Shown: positions 54,350-63,854 of the stretch, piece by piece | Position numbering within the stretch: position 1 is the stretch's first letter | How the letters are laid out: the number at the start of each line of letters is the position of its first letter | Assembly: GCF_004310325.1 (NCBI RefSeq) | Contig: NZ_SIRT01000001.1 | Location: 434,001-498,000, forward strand | From: Hyunsoonleella flava | Lineage (GTDB): Bacteria; Bacteroidota; Bacteroidia; Flavobacteriales; Flavobacteriaceae | Direction: 5' to 3' | DNA: 64,000 nucleotides | Position numbers and translations under genes: made by a program | The notes under the pieces: model-generated | What the model was told of the DNA's origin: nothing | Seen by the model: only the letters and a program-made list of their open reading frames with translations | Database searches by the model: none

Positions 54350-54468
54350 TTGAAAATATATAGATTTTTTTGCGCTGTAAGCGCCCAATATTTTATGTTA
54401 TAACAGTAAATACAATATTTTTTTTGTATAAATTATCTTATATTGCAATAAACAACACAGATTACATA

Positions 54469-54885
54469 TTGCAAGAATTCCTCATCAATTTAAAACGTTT
54501 AGGTAAAAGAAAAATTTACACTGAAACCATTGTTGTAGAACACCAAATTAATGACTTGAAAGATTTAATTATAGCTTGTGTTTCTAGTAAGGTAAGGCAA
54601 TATAATTCCAAAAGAGAAAAAAACCAACTGCTGTCGTTTTTAACACCTTCACAAATTCAAGAGCAATCAGAAACTGGTAAAATAAGTTTTGGAGATATTG
54701 CTAATTTTAAACTGGCAGATGAAACAGAAAGTATTGAAACTGCGCTTCAAGCCTATGCAGATGGTATGTTTTTAGTGTTTTTAGATGATGAAGAAGTTTC
54801 TACGCTAGACACTAAAATTGCACTCTCTAAAGACACAAATATCACCTTTTTAAGAATGACGTTTTTAACAGGAACGTATTGGTAA
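54469..54885 (+). CDS. DUF4132-associated small protein of unknown function
   Basis: The frame is open from 54370, but that region begins with TTG and encodes an unlikely N-terminus. The TTG at 54469 gives 138 residues starting QEFLINLKRLGKRK, and I place the start there with low certainty. The C-terminal half has a regular pattern: SETGKISFGD, ETALQAYADGMFLVFLDDEE, and a final beta-rich TNITFLRMTFLTG. I recall similar small proteins beside DUF4132 genes in other bacteria. It ends 15 bases before the giant gene and surely shares its transcript. Function unknown. Confidence 0.65.
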   Translation: MQEFLINLKRLGKRKIYTETIVVEHQINDLKDLIIACVSSKVRQYNSKREKNQLLSFLTPSQIQEQSETGKISFGDIANFKLADETESIETALQAYADGMFLVFLDDEEVSTLDTKIALSKDTNITFLRMTFLTGTYW

Positions 54886-54900
54886 AAACTAAAACTGAGT

Positions 54901-57900
54901 ATGATTAAATTAGAAAACGCCCAAGCCTTTATTGAAAGCAAAAAAACTTCAAAATTACAAAGAAGTCATTTAAACGGTTTCAGCAGAAAATATAATGTTT
55001 TAGGACTTTTAATTACACAACTTTCAAAAAACACAACGCATAGTTACTACTCAAATAACGTGAACATAACGCCTTATAAAGATCATTTTGGTAGTGATGT
55101 AACCACTAATCCGTGGAAGAGTAAAGAAGGTGCAAAATTAGCCAAGTTATTATTTGGGAATTATCAAGCTAAGTACATTTCAGACATTTGGGATTTAATT
55201 TTAAAATCGCCTTACCAAAACGACTATACAAGGCGCTCGTTTAGATGTAAATCAACGGATGATTATACCGTAAACAGACTTCGGTTTCTACAAAATTTAT
55301 ATCAGTCTGGAACTTTAGGATACTCAGGGTTAAATATTCTAGAATTAGCACAATATGATATTTACGATCAATATTATTACAAAAACCATTCGTATGTATT
55401 TGCTGCTGCTTTAAATGATGAAAAAGAATCGGTAAACCTTCATAATTTAATAAAGGACATTTTTTTAGGTGAAGATGAAATTGGAGGAGTTACCAGAGGT
55501 TTAATAAAAGGTTTGTTACTAACCGAAAATCCTGAGAATTGGAAATTAGTTGAAGATTTATTGCTGGCAGCCCAACGGCAAGAAGGTTTAAGACAAACTA
55601 TTTTGGAGGCCTTGGATGAAACTTCCATTGGCGCACTACAGCATTTTATAAAAGTAATTTTAGATTACAATTTAATGCGATTTAGTAGTGTAGTTAGAGC
55701 TGTAGACACTTGGTTTGGTTTTGGCTGGGAAGCGCCTAAAACCGCAACAATAAAGCGGGTTTTAGAGCTAAGCTTATCTTTTTTTGAAAAACCTAGCTTA
55801 ACCGAAAGGGCATTAACAAGTAAAGACAATTTAGAGATTTATGTTGCTTTATGGTTTTTAGGCTTAGATGATGTTGATAATGCAAATTTAAAGGCGATTG
55901 ATTTAATAAATACAGGTAGTAAAGAGAAAAAAATACTAGCTAGTATGTTTATATCGCAAACAGGGCGAACAAATCATAAAGTTTTAGATTGGATCAACTC
56001 CAATTTTGGAAACGATTTAGAAATAGATTTCTGGGTTTTGCAAACCATACCAATTAACCCTAAGCTTAGTGATGATTTATTCAATAAAATAAAGCACTAT
56101 GGAGAAGAATTGCCTTCTAAGGGAAAAATAGTTAAAGGGCAGGTGTTTGCATGGACCGCGTATACTATTAAACCCGATTACTTTTTTGAATATTTAGTAA
56201 ATCATGCTAACAAAGACCAATACCAGTTATTGGCAAAAAATTTAAGTGCCATAACCTCTGATGAGCGTAGTAACTTTATTAGAAAGCTATTTCCAGACCA
56301 CTATTCTTGGTCTTACTACAATACTAATAAAACGAAAAACCCTAAGATTAATTTAAAAGCAGCACCTTGGAAACGAGATGTTATTCACCAAGCTATTAAG
56401 GATAGAAATACATCTGTAATGGCAACAGGAATTAACCTGTTTGAATCGATAGACTTAAATGATGATGATGTTATTGTACTTGAAGATTTACTTCAGCGTA
56501 AGAATAAAGATTTAAGAGAACATATCATTAAGCTTATACTTAAACAAAAAGAAAATAGGGTAGAAGCTATTACTTCAAATCTTATCGCATCTCCAAAAGT
56601 AGACCAAAGGCTAGCTGCTCTAGAAATAATGACTGTTTTACATGATAGTAACCGCATGGTGCCTTTTATTGATACGCAAATTAGTTTATATACTAAAAGA
56701 CCAAAACTCACTAAAAACGAGCAAGTTTATATCGATAAATTTTCTAAAACCACACAAGATTACAGTTTTGAAAACGGTTTTGGTGCTATAGATTACAGCA
56801 ATCTAGAACCACTAATTACGCCTAAAATTATTTTTGGTAAAGACAAATCATTGCTTTCCAATATCATTTCTAAAATAACCCCAAAAACTAACTTTATTTT
56901 CGGCAATTTAATTGATACTGAAAAAACGGTAAATGCAATAAATACACTAATCCGTCTTTTTGAAAAACATCAAAACTACGAGTACGAAGCACACTATCAG
57001 AATGGTGCTAAAGAAACAGTTTTACTTTCAAATAGTATCAATTTTACAGACAAAAAAGCATATCATTTAGAAGATGCAAAAGCGCAATTGCAGCTGCTTC
57101 CTATGGCAGAGGTATGGATAAACTGGTATGAAAATTCAAAATTGAACGATTTTGAACTATTGGCGGCCATCTATAACTGCGATAATTTCCCATATCTATT
57201 CAAAAGTGAAGATTACGTTCATTTTGTAAAACACTATATGCCCAATTTAAAAGGCTTGCGTTTAGTGAAAACCAATAGATGGGATTCCATAAACAAAAAA
57301 GTTGCTAGACTACTTGATTTTATATATAAAGCTTATGCCGATTTCCCAACACTATTACAGTTTAAAATAGACCTATTTGAAGATGCTATTGCAAGAATTC
57401 CAGAAGATTTAAAGCGTAAAACCTCTAAAGAGCGATGGAATAACAAAGTAACACATTGGACAGATATTATTGAATATCAAACTTTAGATTTGAATGCATT
57501 AGGAACAGAATTGCATCAAATCTCAAACAATACCAAATTACTGAAACGCTATTGGGATTTAAAAATGTATCTATTTGCAGCAAAATTAACTTATCCTAAA
57601 GTGCCAACTGATATTTCTGAAATTGCCAAAACAAACGTTTCTATTTTACAACCAAATTTCCCGCCAGAATGGATTACAGTTGCACTATACAAAGCAAATA
57701 CTATAAGTGCAGATGATTTTAAATATCAGTTACTTGTAAATACCGATTTGCTAAATATTATAGAGAAAACCAGATATTATAGGCACAACGATGTCAATAT
57801 TGATGGCATACCTCATGATATTGCACATGATTTAAAGAAGAACATGATTTCTGTGGAGTTGGAGCGGGGAGACTTGGCTACAGAGGCAACGCATTACATG

Positions 57901-59928
57901 AACCATTTTGGTAGCGTAGAGGGTACAACGTATTTATTCGAATTATTAACACGATTAGGAAAAGACACGTTTCATAGAGGCTACTCTTGGTATAATTTTG
58001 ATTCGAAAAAGGAAGTGTTTAGTAATTTAATAAAGAAAAGTATCCCGAAAGAAACAGAAACCTACACTGATTTTCTGACACAAGCAAAAACTTCAAAAAT
58101 CACAAAAAAGCGTTGGATTGAAACAGCTATTTATGCGCCGCAATGGGCAAACTGGATTGGCGAATACTTAAATATAGAAAAACTGGAAGACGCAGTTTGG
58201 TGGTTTCATGCACATGCTTCAGATTATATGAATGCTGAAAAAGAGACCATAATTTCTAGATATTCTAATGTTGAAAAAGCCGATTTTGCAAAAGGAGTAA
58301 TAGATTTAGATTGGTTTAATGAGGTGTATCCCAAATTTGGAAAACAAAATTGGAAAGTACTACATGATGCCGCAAAATATATTTCTGATGGTAATGGTCA
58401 CCGACTTGTAAAACTGTATTCTTCCGTAATTCTTGGCGAGATTAAAATAAGAGAAACGCTTGCTAAAATAAATGATAAGCGAGACAAGGATTATGTAAAA
58501 GCATTTGGATTAATTCCTTTAAGTAAAGCCAATAGAAAAAAAGACCTTTTAAATAGGTATACTATTTTACAGGAGTTTTTAAGAGAAAGCAAACAGTTTG
58601 GAGCGCAACGACAAGAAAGCGAAAAAAATGCTGTAGAAATAGCTTTGGATAATTTGGCAAGAAATGCAGGATATGATGATAGTATTCGGTTTTCTTGGGC
58701 AATGGAAGGGGAGGCTACCCAAAACATTATGAAACAAGCATTTGTTGAGATTGATAATGTAGTTGTAGAATTATTTGTTAATGCACAGGGAAAAGCAGAT
58801 ATAAAAGTTACTAAAGATGGGAAATCCCAAAAATCTATTCCTGCTAAATACAGAAAGGATAAGCAAATTAAATCGCTTCAAAAAAATAAAGCATATTTAA
58901 GAAAACAATATTCCAGAACACGTATTTCGTTAGAAAACGCGATGTTAAGAGAAGAAGTGTTTAGTAAAGAAGAACTTAAAAACATCCTGATACATCCAGT
59001 TGTAAAAGCAATGCTAAATAAGTTAGTGCTTTATAATAAAACAAAAAACACCTTTGGGTTTTATAAAGAAGGTGGTTTGGAGGATAGTGAAGGTAAGCTA
59101 ATCAGCATTGCAGAAGATGATGCAGTTGTTATTGCGCATCCATCTCATTTATATGAAAACGTTGTTTGGGATTTGTATCAAAAATATGCTTTTGATACAA
59201 AACTAGTACAGCCTTTTAAACAAATATTTAGAGAGCTTTATGTAATTACAAAAGACGAAATAGAACGTAATTTACAGTCAGAACGGTACCAAGGCCACCA
59301 AATACAACCTCAAAAAACTGTAGCATTATTACGTTCGCGAGGATGGACGGTAAATCATGAAGAAGGCTTACAAAAAGTATATCACAAAAAAGGATTTATA
59401 GCTTCAATTTATGCTATGGCAGATTGGTTTTCTCCAGCCGATATTGAGGCACCAACATTAGAGCATATAGCGTTTCATTCTAGAAACACCTACAAACCAA
59501 TACCGCTTACTGACATAGATAGCGTAACATTTAGTGAAGTAATGCGCGACTTAGATTTGGTAGTAAGTGTAGCGCATGTTGGAGGTGTAGACCCAGAAGC
59601 AAGTCATTCTACCATGCAGATGCGTGGTGCTTTAGCAAGAGAAACCGCAAGACTATTTAAAGCAGATAATGTTACAGTACAAGAACGACATATTTTAATA
59701 AAAGGAACTTTGGCCGATTATAGTATTCATCTAGGAAGTGGCATGGTAAGCAAAACAGGTTTACAATTATCTATCATACCAGTACACAGCCAACATCGCG
59801 GGCGTTTATTTTTACCGTTTATTGATGACGATCCGAAAACTGCTGAAATCATTTCAAAAATGAAATTATTGTCAGAAGATAATAAGATAAAGGATCCTAC
59901 AATTTTAGCTCAGATACAACGGTCTTAA
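54901..59928 (+). CDS. Giant DUF4132-domain protein (1675 residues)
   Basis: This very long cytoplasmic protein has no signal peptide or membrane segment. Most of it is helical and looks like a HEAT-like scaffold (short repeats around 260-620). The last 450 residues form the DUF4132 region, recognisable by FRELYVIT, RSRGWTV, DLDLVVSVAHVGGVDPE and IHLGSGMV. DUF4132 is also found in MolR-type proteins, but its activity is unknown. The single small partner gene directly upstream suggests a two-protein complex. It has no mobile signatures itself, but it sits at the edge of an accessory region. Confidence 0.85.
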   Translation: MIKLENAQAFIESKKTSKLQRSHLNGFSRKYNVLGLLITQLSKNTTHSYYSNNVNITPYKDHFGSDVTTNPWKSKEGAKLAKLLFGNYQAKYISDIWDLILKSPYQNDYTRRSFRCKSTDDYTVNRLRFLQNLYQSGTLGYSGLNILELAQYDIYDQYYYKNHSYVFAAALNDEKESVNLHNLIKDIFLGEDEIGGVTRGLIKGLLLTENPENWKLVEDLLLAAQRQEGLRQTILEALDETSIGALQHFIKVILDYNLMRFSSVVRAVDTWFGFGWEAPKTATIKRVLELSLSFFEKPSLTERALTSKDNLEIYVALWFLGLDDVDNANLKAIDLINTGSKEKKILASMFISQTGRTNHKVLDWINSNFGNDLEIDFWVLQTIPINPKLSDDLFNKIKHYGEELPSKGKIVKGQVFAWTAYTIKPDYFFEYLVNHANKDQYQLLAKNLSAITSDERSNFIRKLFPDHYSWSYYNTNKTKNPKINLKAAPWKRDVIHQAIKDRNTSVMATGINLFESIDLNDDDVIVLEDLLQRKNKDLREHIIKLILKQKENRVEAITSNLIASPKVDQRLAALEIMTVLHDSNRMVPFIDTQISLYTKRPKLTKNEQVYIDKFSKTTQDYSFENGFGAIDYSNLEPLITPKIIFGKDKSLLSNIISKITPKTNFIFGNLIDTEKTVNAINTLIRLFEKHQNYEYEAHYQNGAKETVLLSNSINFTDKKAYHLEDAKAQLQLLPMAEVWINWYENSKLNDFELLAAIYNCDNFPYLFKSEDYVHFVKHYMPNLKGLRLVKTNRWDSINKKVARLLDFIYKAYADFPTLLQFKIDLFEDAIARIPEDLKRKTSKERWNNKVTHWTDIIEYQTLDLNALGTELHQISNNTKLLKRYWDLKMYLFAAKLTYPKVPTDISEIAKTNVSILQPNFPPEWITVALYKANTISADDFKYQLLVNTDLLNIIEKTRYYRHNDVNIDGIPHDIAHDLKKNMISVELERGDLATEATHYMNHFGSVEGTTYLFELLTRLGKDTFHRGYSWYNFDSKKEVFSNLIKKSIPKETETYTDFLTQAKTSKITKKRWIETAIYAPQWANWIGEYLNIEKLEDAVWWFHAHASDYMNAEKETIISRYSNVEKADFAKGVIDLDWFNEVYPKFGKQNWKVLHDAAKYISDGNGHRLVKLYSSVILGEIKIRETLAKINDKRDKDYVKAFGLIPLSKANRKKDLLNRYTILQEFLRESKQFGAQRQESEKNAVEIALDNLARNAGYDDSIRFSWAMEGEATQNIMKQAFVEIDNVVVELFVNAQGKADIKVTKDGKSQKSIPAKYRKDKQIKSLQKNKAYLRKQYSRTRISLENAMLREEVFSKEELKNILIHPVVKAMLNKLVLYNKTKNTFGFYKEGGLEDSEGKLISIAEDDAVVIAHPSHLYENVVWDLYQKYAFDTKLVQPFKQIFRELYVITKDEIERNLQSERYQGHQIQPQKTVALLRSRGWTVNHEEGLQKVYHKKGFIASIYAMADWFSPADIEAPTLEHIAFHSRNTYKPIPLTDIDSVTFSEVMRDLDLVVSVAHVGGVDPEASHSTMQMRGALARETARLFKADNVTVQERHILIKGTLADYSIHLGSGMVSKTGLQLSIIPVHSQHRGRLFLPFIDDDPKTAEIISKMKLLSEDNKIKDPTILAQIQRS

Positions 59929-60902: not shown

Positions 60903-61313
60903 TTAATTAGATAATAGCTTTAAAAACCAATCTAAAACTCTTCTAAAAATTGATTTTCTTACCTGTTTTGATTCTAAATCATCATAATAGGCTTGTCTTT
61001 TTCTTGCTTCTGCTTCACGTCCTGCTATGATTTCCTCTTCACTCCAATCATGTGACCATTCAATATTTCCATTAGTAATCCAATAATGCGACCTACATGG
61101 TAATTGCCAATTACCTATAGAAGGATATAAAGTTGGTTTATTTTTAACTTCTTTAAACGACCATTCGGATGGCTCAATTGGAGTCATTATTTTATTTTCA
61201 CAACCACATGGGCACAAATGACCTGCAATACCAAATTCTTCAGAAACATATAAAATTCCTTGCTCAAGGACTTTTGGTAAATATTCAACTTTCAGCAATT
61301 TAATTTTTTCCAT
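60903..61313 (-). CDS. DUF6527 family zinc-site protein
   Basis: This 136-residue protein has H-L-C-P-C-G-C (His32, Cys34, Cys36, Cys38) and a second pair in LPCRSHYW (Cys73, His76), a likely zinc site and the hallmark of DUF6527. Proteins of this family occur beside ThiF/E1-like and multiubiquitin genes. The C-terminal part is an amphipathic basic helix (about 112-136). Its start overlaps the ThiF gene by 14 bases. The function is unknown; a structural or ligase-like role in the conjugation system is possible. Confidence 0.85.
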   Translation of the reverse strand: MEKIKLLKVEYLPKVLEQGILYVSEEFGIAGHLCPCGCENKIMTPIEPSEWSFKEVKNKPTLYPSIGNWQLPCRSHYWITNGNIEWSHDWSEEEIIAGREAEARKRQAYYDDLESKQVRKSIFRRVLDWFLKLLSN

Positions 61314-62475
61314 TCTCCCCTACTAAATTTACCCCATCAACATTAAATAACATGTGGAAATATGAATTGTCATCCAAATAAAAACCTCTTATTTGTTTAT
61401 ATTTAATAACCGCTAAACAAGCATTTAAGGCATTAAGTTCTGAAATTTGAATATTACTTTTATAAACATGATCGGGAATATCACTTAATGGAGCTAGCCT
61501 TTTATTTATAGTACTTTGTGCTGATTCGACAGGGAAATATGTAGTTCGAAGTGTGCCACTTATTAAGCCAGTATCTTTGTCTAATCCCATACCTAAATCT
61601 ATAAATGGTATTTTTAGTTTTACTAGTAAATCAAATATTTCACCACGAGCAGCTCCGCTATCAACACACACAAAAGCAAAAGTAACCCCAGTCAAATCTT
61701 CTTCTGAATCACAAGTAATATAATTAGAATAAATATTTACATTATCACGGAAATTCTGATAACGATTGTTATATACTTCTGTTTTTCTTTTACCTAGTTC
61801 TTCTTCATTTAATTTTCCAGGAGAACGGAATGCATTATGAACATGATACCAATCTCCATCAAATCCTTTGATTTCTTTTACTGGAGTTTTAACTAAAAAA
61901 TCTAAAAGGTATGAACCAGTCCCACCAAGTCCGATAATCGCAATTGTATCTTCTTCAAGTTTAGCACTTAACTCTCCTATTCCTGCCCTACTTGTTAACG
62001 TATCCCTAAATTTAAACACAGATTTAGTGTTTTCATCAGCTACTCTAAAAGTATAAGGGTTCGCATCAAATTTATCAATTGCTGGTCCAGAAATTATAGT
62101 AATATAATTTTCAATTTTTTCGAACCAATCTTTAAATTTTCCACTTGGAGGCTTGTTAGAGAAAGACCTTTGTACAACCAAATCTTTTGAAGCCAAATGG
62201 ACTGATGTGACACCACCACCAAGATTTCTTATTGGTTTTCCGTTTAATTCATGAGGATGACTACCACAAAAGAATATTTGATGGTCTTTCATGCTCATTT
62301 TATTCTGGCTAATAAAATTTACTATCGAAACTATTGCGCCAATTTGAAGGTTTCCATTATTGTCTAGATAAGGGATATCTCTAACAACAAGATGATTGCT
62401 ATCTATTGCTAATGCATATCCCTTTTTTAATAACCTTTCAATATCTTCATTATTTTCTGCTAAACTTCCTATCAT
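61300..62475 (-). CDS. ThiF/E1-like adenylyltransferase with N-terminal DUF6791-type domain
   Basis: This 391-residue protein has an N-terminal region (about 1-165) resembling DUF6791. The E1-like Rossmann domain carries GLGGTG at 182-187, the acidic Asp206/Asp208 after the second strand, the Arg finger region NAFR (214-217) and Lys230-Lys231. E1-like enzymes adenylate the C-terminus of a ubiquitin-like protein. No CxxC zinc pairs exist. The only cysteines are Cys70, Cys255, Cys270 and Cys353, so any thioester must use one of these or the enzyme may stop at adenylation. It lies 6 bases after the ubiquitin-like gene. Confidence 0.88.
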   Translation of the reverse strand: MIGSLAENNEDIERLLKKGYALAIDSNHLVVRDIPYLDNNGNLQIGAIVSIVNFISQNKMSMKDHQIFFCGSHPHELNGKPIRNLGGGVTSVHLASKDLVVQRSFSNKPPSGKFKDWFEKIENYITIISGPAIDKFDANPYTFRVADENTKSVFKFRDTLTSRAGIGELSAKLEEDTIAIIGLGGTGSYLLDFLVKTPVKEIKGFDGDWYHVHNAFRSPGKLNEEELGKRKTEVYNNRYQNFRDNVNIYSNYITCDSEEDLTGVTFAFVCVDSGAARGEIFDLLVKLKIPFIDLGMGLDKDTGLISGTLRTTYFPVESAQSTINKRLAPLSDIPDHVYKSNIQISELNALNACLAVIKYKQIRGFYLDDNSYFHMLFNVDGVNLVGENGKN

Positions 62476-62481
62476 TTCTAT

Positions 62482-62751
62482 TTAAGATTGTCCCGTATGT
62501 TTCACTTTAAAAATCATTCCTTCTTTTACTCTTACTTTTCCACCTGGAGATAAAATTCCAGTTGGTTTATTTCCTTGTCCTCTTTCATAAGTAACTGAAT
62601 AAGTTCTTTCTGGATGTTGAGGAAAATCGGGAAATGCAAGTGTAACCACTTCATCATAAGTGATATCGTTCTTTTCTTCTTCATGAGGAGTTCCATTAAC
62701 AATAATGGTTACCTTTTTTGTTTTTTTGTCTTTTTCTAAATTTGAGACCAT
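62482..62751 (-). CDS. Multiubiquitin-family beta-grasp protein (ubiquitin-like)
   Basis: The start ATG at 62751 gives 89 residues (an upstream in-frame ATG at 62814 adds a poor N-terminus that would overlap the inverted repeat). One beta-grasp unit is recognisable: VTIIVNGTPHE, TYDEVVTLAFPD, YSVTYERGQGNKPTG and a closing KVRVKEGMIFKV. This is the Multi_ubiq pattern but with a single copy instead of tandem ones. The protein ends HTGQS with no terminal Gly-Gly. In known systems such proteins are activated by the linked E1-like enzyme. It opens the operon. Confidence 0.82.
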   Translation of the reverse strand: MVSNLEKDKKTKKVTIIVNGTPHEEEKNDITYDEVVTLAFPDFPQHPERTYSVTYERGQGNKPTGILSPGGKVRVKEGMIFKVKHTGQS

Positions 62752-62804
62752 AATTTTATTTTTTTTGTTATTAAACAATTTTTTATGGTACAAATAAAAG
62801 ACAG

Positions 62805-62829
62805 TATGGCGCAATCTATTTGCGCCATA
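62805..62829. promoter_or_regulatory. Perfect 10-bp inverted repeat, candidate operator
   Basis: TATGGCGCAA-TCTAT-TTGCGCCATA is a perfect palindrome with a 5-base centre, located between the WYL regulator gene and the ubiquitin-like gene, 53 bases upstream of the latter. It is G+C-rich against the AT-rich surroundings and not followed by a T-run, so it is a better operator than terminator. Binding by the WYL protein is inference. Confidence 0.6.
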
Positions 62830-62855
62830 AAAAAGAATATTATATTTTTTTTAAT

Positions 62856-63854
62856 TTATGTGATTTTATATTGTGCTTGTGCATTTTTTAATGCATCAAC
62901 AACCTTTGCTATGACTGACTTTGGAGATATTATTCTAGCATCAGAACCGTAACTAAAAATTTTTGAGTAAAATTCATAAGATGGTTTCACGATAACTTTA
63001 ATGATTAAAAATTCTTTATTTTCTTCAACTATTTCCTGTGTATGATGAATTGGAAGTGTTTTAAGATAATGTCCTTGTTTTGATTTAAATGAAATAATTA
63101 CTTCAATGGGTACTTCATCTGTAACAGTAACTCCAAATGAATATTTAAAATATTCTTGACTATTAAAATCTATTTTTTCAAAAACTTCCCCAGTTCGTTT
63201 AAAGCTAATTATTCGGTCTAAACCAAAAGTTATTAAACTATCATACTTAATATTTATTCCAATTAAATACCATAGTAATTTATCCTCTTTTAATAATAAT
63301 GGCTTTATGAAATGCTTCTTTGATTCTTTATTATGCCTCCTATAGTTTACCTCAATAACATTATGATTTGCGATACAATCTAATAATTCAGTGATGTTTC
63401 CCAAACCGGGAATAAGAGGATGTTTTTCAGTTTCTAATAATGTGTTCTGTTCAAATAGTTCTTTCATTTTTAAAGATATATTCGATGAATCAATAACCTT
63501 TTTTGTAGTCATTGAAATTTCTTTAAATATTGGATAATCTCTATATTGAGTTATTGTTTTAAAATAAAAAAGAAGAGCATTTATTTCTTCATCTAATAAT
63601 TCAATAATTGGAAATATTTCATCAATATTTTCTGGATAATAATAGGCTTTTTTTGATGTATCATATTCAATCGGTGCATGATAGTCTGTTATCATATTTC
63701 TAATATCTCTTTGAATAGTTGTCTCTCCAACTGAAATATCATGCCTCTCATAAACTTTATTTATAATAAAACTCGTTTTAACGGTATCATAATCTCTCAA
63801 TAATCTATCTATAACACGATAACGTAGCTGAATATTTTTAGGTAATTCCCGCAT
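62856..63854 (-). CDS. WYL-domain transcriptional regulator
   Basis: This 332-residue protein has an N-terminal winged helix-turn-helix (about 10-72, GETTIQRDIRNM), a linker, and a WYL domain (about 155-225) with Trp195-Tyr196-Leu197 and the conserved R-I pair at 214-215, then a WCX-type C-terminal domain (about 235-325). WYL regulators sense nucleic acid or nucleotide ligands and often repress phage-defence operons (CapW and BrxR types). It starts 3 bases after the DUF2779 gene. The palindrome downstream is its likely target. Confidence 0.9.
   Translation of the reverse strand: MRELPKNIQLRYRVIDRLLRDYDTVKTSFIINKVYERHDISVGETTIQRDIRNMITDYHAPIEYDTSKKAYYYPENIDEIFPIIELLDEEINALLFYFKTITQYRDYPIFKEISMTTKKVIDSSNISLKMKELFEQNTLLETEKHPLIPGLGNITELLDCIANHNVIEVNYRRHNKESKKHFIKPLLLKEDKLLWYLIGINIKYDSLITFGLDRIISFKRTGEVFEKIDFNSQEYFKYSFGVTVTDEVPIEVIISFKSKQGHYLKTLPIHHTQEIVEENKEFLIIKVIVKPSYEFYSKIFSYGSDARIISPKSVIAKVVDALKNAQAQYKIT

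Follow-up and report, generated by a model that had tools for sequence, protein, structure and literature searches.

Which function is served by a small gene that stands directly in front of a very large gene made of domains of unknown function? This question is raised by a gene pair of Hyunsoonleella flava (Flavobacteriaceae, Bacteroidota), located in the stretch of 64,000 nucleotides (positions 434,001 to 498,000 of contig NZ_SIRT01000001.1, assembly GCF_004310325.1) that was analysed here and is called the window. Our reading, to which a probability of about 0.55 is given, is that the small gene encodes a ubiquitin-like protein (Ubl) dedicated to a HEAT-repeat giant protein, that both serve in a stress response, and that the Ubl is activated by an E1-type enzyme in those forms which end in Gly-Gly. 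Both open reading frames (ORFs) are intact and lie head to tail, and the coordinates given in a preliminary description of the locus (138 and 1675 residues, 15 bases apart) were confirmed. The features of the pair are the following:

54469..54885, plus strand: small gene, 138 codons, TTG start; predicted ubiquitin/MoaD-like beta-grasp protein with a helical insertion
54901..59928, plus strand: giant partner gene, 1675 codons, ATG start; DUF5724, DUF4132 and DUF7737
Residues 39-1268 of the giant: DUF5724, Pfam 1018 bits (cut-off 25)
57958..58734, plus strand: HEAT-like helical region, residues 1020-1278, mostly inside DUF5724 and all-helical from about residue 1036
58819..59346, plus strand: DUF4132 domain, residues 1307-1482, Pfam 165 bits (cut-off 27)
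59614..59916, plus strand: DUF7737 domain, residues 1572-1672, Pfam 114 bits; its presence tracks the small gene

An alternative upstream TTG at 54370 would give a small protein of 171 residues. The 138-codon start is supported because the small protein of a close relative, Algibacter amylolyticus (L050; L numbers denote loci), starts with GTG at the equivalent codon. The H. flava genome contains one DUF4132 gene in total.

The preliminary description held that the same pairing occurs in distant phyla, and this was borne out. In a whole-collection scan, of which the best 80 of 580 confirmed stretches were examined, the small gene is present at 76 loci. Three of the four loci without it (L055, L114, L116) are at contig edges, and the fourth, L052, has none in 25 kb. 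The pair occurs in Bacteroidota, Bacillota, methanogens, Acidobacteria, Anaerolineales, Phycisphaerales and Deinococcota, as well as on short Proteobacteria-labelled contigs from metagenome-assembled genomes (MAGs), which are possibly misbinned. Within the family, the small protein was found in 11 of 199 genomes, that of H. flava included. A DUF4132 relative stands near the small gene in all 11, in one case only as a remnant of 147 residues. At L026:13050-13493, this 147-residue remnant joins a match to the first 73 residues of the giant with one to its last 71, beside an intact small gene. Among the loci from the plasmid collection, 6 of 11 have the small gene (four from Deinococcus, one each from Bacteroides and Novosphingobium). 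A phylum sample gave DUF5724 matches in 12 of 395 genomes; the seven strong ones all come with the small gene, the five weak ones without.

The whole-collection and DUF5724 searches favour DUF5724-type giants; DUF4132 genes were therefore also sampled from five phyla, named as in the seed records and not including Actinomycetota. The seeds (the window, G580, G583, G584 and G587) were excluded, and one broken DUF4132 fragment in G271 was left out. The preliminary description had regarded absence of the small protein beside most DUF4132 genes as evidence against the pairing. Taken literally, such absence was found (35 of 59 genes), but it is confined almost completely to one kind of giant. Of the 25 DUF4132 genes with a DUF7737 region, defined in these counts by a profile of window residues 1500-1675, 24 have the small gene no more than 3 kb away; of the 34 genes lacking this region, none has it there. 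The association is strong (Fisher test, p about 1e-15, with some genomes contributing several, not fully independent, rows). The one exception, L237, begins 70 bases away from the end of its contig, and in three of the 24 positives (L199, L201, L231) the giant is split into shorter ORFs. The true partner is the DUF4132-DUF7737 subfamily and not DUF4132 as a whole, and the small protein is almost certainly dedicated to it. Other DUF4132 proteins have the DUF4132 domain in common with the giant but neither the DUF7737 region nor the small gene. They are mostly 1010-1393 residues long, whereas giants with the small gene exist as long forms of about 1650 residues, the window type, and compact forms of mostly 814-970 residues (the ORFs of L212 and L236 are longer, with 1117 and 1232 residues). 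Two of the proteins without DUF7737 were scanned with Pfam: L205 contains WGR, L226 does not. L226, L227 and L228 are Acidobacteriota proteins of 2004-2055 residues, and in the scanned L226 the DUF4132 domain is N-terminal (residues 67-251). MolR of Escherichia coli is a further DUF4132 protein; E. coli was positive in the DUF4132 control search.

All 112 pairs have both genes on one strand, and this number includes genomes reached twice (e.g., L025/L044 and L027/L082). The gap exceeds 250 bases in nine pairs, and at L038 one gene lies in between. The small gene is downstream of the giant in 21 of 109 labelled pairs, which corresponds to five order changes by parsimony on the tree described below; one of them (L101) is probably a start-codon artefact. 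The gene order thus changes repeatedly and adjacency outlives it. It may be expected that the two proteins form a conserved complex, as the preliminary description proposed.

What kind of protein is the small partner? Its length is about 130-140 residues including a helical insertion, and it matches no family in Pfam, PADLOC or PHROGs at the thresholds used. Against NCBIfam, a single match of 15 bits was obtained, far under the curated cut-off of 123. The AlphaFold model, built with 15 homologues, reached a predicted local distance difference test (pLDDT) of 84.1 and a predicted template modelling score (pTM) of 0.73. Its topology is strand-strand-helix...helix-strand-strand (strands 2-10 and 16-23, helix 30-57, further helices, strands 101-105 and 125-129). 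The best Foldseek matches were a Trypanosoma brucei ubiquitin-like protein, a MoaD-type subunit of Helicobacter pylori and RAS-binding domains of PI3K, followed by human molybdopterin synthase, the Ubl domain of parkin and ISG15. Matches were mostly ubiquitin-like or other beta-grasp chains, those of PI3K being the most numerous. The VIA comparison was headed by a chain of the U11 small nuclear ribonucleoprotein (Z 8.1), presumably SNRNP25, then human molybdopterin synthase (7.8) and Urm1 (7.3), with ISG15, ubiquitin and SAMP1 next and Z still at 6.5 at rank 50. The published structure prediction for DR_A0165, the Deinococcus radiodurans homologue discussed below, is likewise MOCS2/SAMP1-like, with 5MPO and 3PO0 first (PMC9650054). 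Judged from these models, the small protein very probably has a ubiquitin/MoaD-like beta-grasp fold.

The giant belongs to the DUF5724-DUF4132 family by the Pfam cut-offs. Within DUF4132, the residues H1413, Q1441, R1444, Y1447, E1453, R1462 and W1482 are identical in 70 of 70 aligned sequences. A model of residues 1020-1675 (pLDDT 88.3, pTM 0.74) consists of a HEAT-like helical arm (about 1036-1278), which matches HEAT-type proteins, and a DUF4132/DUF7737 core with many invariant polar residues. The earlier characterisation of the giant as helical is accurate for the arm; the core is mixed alpha/beta.

The C-terminus of the small protein divides the family. In the compact forms, Gly-Gly stands exactly at the stop codon in 17 of 17 proteins. 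Mean pairwise identity among these is 39%; of the 128 well-filled columns, 10 show a single residue throughout, and both Gly belong to these 10. L026 was kept outside the 17, as its 147-residue remnant had led the script to score it as compact. Gly-Gly endings are also found in four of four Deinococcus species and in one Anaerolineales MAG. The D. radiodurans protein ends in ..LTALAGG and the window protein in ..LTGTYW. The full C-terminus of the latter reads ..RMTFLTGTYW, with G-T-Y-W where other forms have Gly-Gly, and so lacks the C-terminal Gly-Gly of a conjugatable, E1-activated Ubl. In a tree of the common core, which includes four MolR-like proteins and is rooted with one of them, 16 of the 17 compact Gly-Gly forms group together (0.98) as the sister clade of the long forms. 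The remaining one, L239, is compact by length and ends in Gly-Gly, and is placed at the base of the long forms, branching before the tail-bearing clade (0.89). A weak group (0.36) of Deinococcus, L100 (ending in Gly-Gly) and L118 (ending in Gly-Met) also branches before that clade. Since L239 and the Gly-Gly-ending long forms branch before the tail-bearing forms, the Gly-Gly ending is, from the sequences compared, probably the ancestral state. The window form is more probably than not a non-conjugating subunit, because it ends in GTYW.

A ThiF gene of the E1 type directly follows the giant at two compact loci, L033 (1-base overlap) and L144 (2-base gap), with Pfam PF00899 scores of 219 and 211 bits. 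E1 activation of the Gly-Gly-ending small proteins is regarded as likely. Neighbour clustering, which was used to look for a conserved third partner, revealed clade synteny alone, and no E2 or JAB gene was recognised by eye beside compact pairs, for which no profile search was made. The same features could be explained by small-molecule or RNA chemistry, in which no protein is modified and the small protein carries sulfur as a C-terminal thiocarboxylate into an active site of the giant, in the manner of MoaD-MoaE or ThiS-ThiG. Small subunits of molybdopterin synthase rank high in the structural comparisons, the ThiF proteins at the two loci are single-domain E1s, and a one-to-one dedicated pairing is typical of a carrier and its enzyme. 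Yet 83 of 94 long-form Ubls, the window kind included, have no near-terminal Gly-Gly and could form no thiocarboxylate of the known style, and no biosynthetic neighbour recurs beyond clade synteny. In addition, the giant has no MoaE match in Pfam, a partner by which molybdopterin synthase would be recognised. Sulfur carriage is hence a rather unlikely explanation of the pair as a whole.

The link of a dedicated Ubl to stress comes from Deinococcus. In D. radiodurans, trxC and a DUF99 gene flank a pair of genes for homologues of the two proteins, arranged as in the window, and the small protein is a clear homologue (E 2e-32). From its position and operator, this pair is DR_A0165-DR_A0166. An operator of the radiation/desiccation response motif (RDRM) type, controlled by DdrO, has been reported 83 bases upstream (-83), and mitomycin C raises the DRA0166 protein in an IrrE-dependent manner (PMC8533742). 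An exact 17-base copy of the operator, TTATGCTATTTACATAA, precedes the small gene in each of D. radiodurans, D. psychrotolerans and strain D7000 (L124:5229-5245, L270:3815-3831 and L271:3547-3563), and D. ficus has a symmetric variant of it. DR_A0165, alias SEP068184, is induced by gamma rays and hydrogen peroxide (H2O2), it binds Trx1, and its deletion increases H2O2 survival (PMC9650054). The same paper describes DR_A0165 as restricted to Deinococcus and as having no RDRM upstream. Both statements are contradicted by the sequences, because homologues span phyla and the operator stands upstream of the gene. The proposal of a stress-type module in the preliminary description therefore holds for D. 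radiodurans, where induction and deletion data have been published; for other lineages it is extrapolated from there, and we give a stress role beyond Deinococcus an even chance.

The deletion data also bear on another possibility, a toxin-antitoxin pair in which the small protein would be the antitoxin. The small gene usually comes first and the gap is short, as such a pair would have it, but the gene order flips. In Deinococcus the idea is contradicted directly: the DR_A0165 deletion strain is viable, with somewhat faster late growth and unaffected DR_A0166 expression (PMC9650054). A toxin-antitoxin function is very improbable.

Several results weigh against an E1-activated Ubl dedicated to the giant. 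Sequence comparison did not clearly link the small protein to a known Ubl family: in a Pfam scan of 39 small-protein members, the families listed (25 of 39) hold weak single-member matches alone, and a profile search of PDB gave five weak, unrelated matches at chance level. A small-protein profile matched ThiS/MoaD sequences with E 0.003 and a probability of 10%, in the last strands only, in register over 28 columns, and the Gly-Gly-ending subset did worse against the ThiS/MoaD profile (E 0.024, probability 2%, nine columns). The Foldseek E-values of the small protein are weak (0.06 and up), with a plainly unrelated match at rank 16, and a VIA Z near 8 can reflect a common arrangement, according to the caution given with the tool. 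For the giant, no solved fold matched the DUF4132-DUF7737 core: Foldseek matches were weak (E 0.13 and up) with HEAT-type proteins first, and the VIA matches to residues 1020-1675 fall on the helical part, none on the core. Adjacent ThiF genes were found at just 2 of 17 compact loci and none near long-form pairs, so that an E1 link is suggested but not general. Five of the 11 giants from the plasmid collection match the DUF7737-region profile, yet no small gene was detectable beside them (Nonomuraea L127 and L268, Acetobacter L269 and L272, and Burkholderia L129 with a weak profile match), so Ubl-free forms of these giants exist. In Capnocytophaga gingivalis (L052:10001-20050), two tandem giants, the first split in two ORFs, have no small gene. 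Among the small proteins of 94 long-form pairs, three end in Gly-Gly, eight in Gly-Gly followed by 1-4 residues, and 83 otherwise; beyond these 94, Gly-Gly endings were seen in two more Deinococcus species. Lastly, N- and C-terminally tagged DR_A0165 had 157 pulled-down proteins in common (PMC9650054), and a free C-terminus is therefore seemingly unneeded for those contacts.

The last two points are what a purely non-covalent complex would predict, in which the beta-grasp protein serves the giant as subunit or adaptor in all forms and Gly-Gly is a structural turn: tail-bearing forms dominate, and the tagged proteins share their contacts. This explanation leaves the terminal Gly-Gly of all compact forms to be accounted for, which is retained despite low mean identity, and also the E1 genes directly downstream in two operons. 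As an account of all forms, it is considered unlikely, though less so than sulfur carriage.

With an E1-activated, dedicated Ubl as the preferred reading, we infer docking, activation chemistry and target as follows. The beta-grasp body of the small protein would dock on the giant at its DUF4132-DUF7737 core. By analogy with MoaD and MoaE, the flexible tail of the small protein may enter a conserved polar pocket of this core, where it would be expected close to the conserved polar residues H1413, R1444, E1453, R1462, E1546, D1552, H1610 and S1613. The HEAT-like arm would scaffold or select the target. In the Gly-Gly forms (compact, Deinococcus and the Anaerolineales MAG), an E1/ThiF protein, encoded next door at two compact loci and elsewhere in the genome otherwise, would adenylate the tail. 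The activated tail could then be conjugated to proteins or pass on sulfur, the giant being its ligase, acceptor or carrier partner. In the window clade, another residue would have taken the place of the second Gly, followed by a short aromatic tail, and the Ubl would most likely be a non-conjugated regulatory subunit. The module may serve a stress response, which in Deinococcus is one to oxidation and DNA damage. D. radiodurans survives H2O2 less well when the JAMM protease DR0402 is lost, and a Ubl system has been speculated upon (PMC8832034). This phenotype is the reverse of that of the DR_A0165 deletion; DR0402 may be tied to DR_A0165. A more far-reaching picture, a widespread bacterial and archaeal modification system with an E1-activated Ubl, HEAT-DUF4132-DUF7737 giants as a new ligase class, oxidised or DNA-damage proteins as substrates, DR0402 as deconjugase, and lineages in which Gly-Gly was lost and the Ubl became a fixed subunit, is speculative and at present doubtful.

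Compared to known systems, the pair resembles MoaD/ThiS and SAMP/TtuB in its predicted beta-grasp fold, the terminal Gly-Gly of compact and Deinococcus forms and the ThiF neighbour at two loci. It differs from them by the absence of a clear sequence relation, by the DUF4132-DUF7737 partner and by many members without Gly-Gly. With the bacterial Ubl/E1/E2/JAB operons (Iyer et al. 2006, PMC1779556), it shares a Ubl next to an E1 at some loci; a text search of the available part of that paper gave no occurrence of MolR or DRA0165. Likewise, MolR, DUF4132 and WGR are absent from the main text, as far as accessible, of a paper on MoxR/vWA conflict systems (PMC7159879). In the literature searched, no paper on DUF5724 or DUF7737 was found, the papers mentioning DUF4132 were, in their accessible parts, not about a partner Ubl, and nothing joined MolR with ThiF and ubiquitin-like proteins. 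The pair gives a testable function for three domains of unknown function, DUF5724, DUF4132 and DUF7737, and a protein described as confined to Deinococcus, with a ubiquitin-like fold by prediction, becomes the visible representative of a gene pair found across phyla. Moreover, Ubl proteins would be linked to a bacterial DNA-damage regulon, where the authors of the JAMM protease study suspected a Ubl system (PMC8832034). Nature here provides a gradation between forms that end in Gly-Gly and forms that bear a tail, on which the change of a modifier into a subunit can be studied.

Finally, is the pair a defence system, as the preliminary description thought possible? Ubl/E1 operons are known defence genes, and a separate one lies about 1 kb away in the window. 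The distribution in the family is patchy (11 of 199 genomes), and Acetobacter relatives of the giant are on mobilizable plasmids. The searches lent no support to this idea: PADLOC 2023 contained no match to the small protein and a single weak 11-bit HEAT match to the giant, PHROGs gave none, and the giants, which were searched there and not the small protein, had no match in phage records or two viral-contig scans. Identical surroundings at 10 of 11 Chryseobacterium loci and membership of the damage regulon in D. radiodurans also speak against it. An anti-phage role is improbable.

The neighbouring operon is convergent with the pair:

60903-63854, minus strand: multi-ubiquitin operon with a WYL regulator, Multi_ubiq (PF14452), a DUF6791-ThiF E1 and DUF6527

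The WYL regulator is the only one of the four encoded proteins with relatives in the pool of pair loci. Two ThiF genes are present in the H. flava genome, and this operon contains one of the two. At the Acetobacter loci, a 132-residue protein that the Ubl profile does not match occupies the position of the small gene. In front of the small gene in the window, an AT-rich block at 54430-54456 resembles, by eye, a block upstream of 9569 in Algibacter (L050), and both are possibly promoters.

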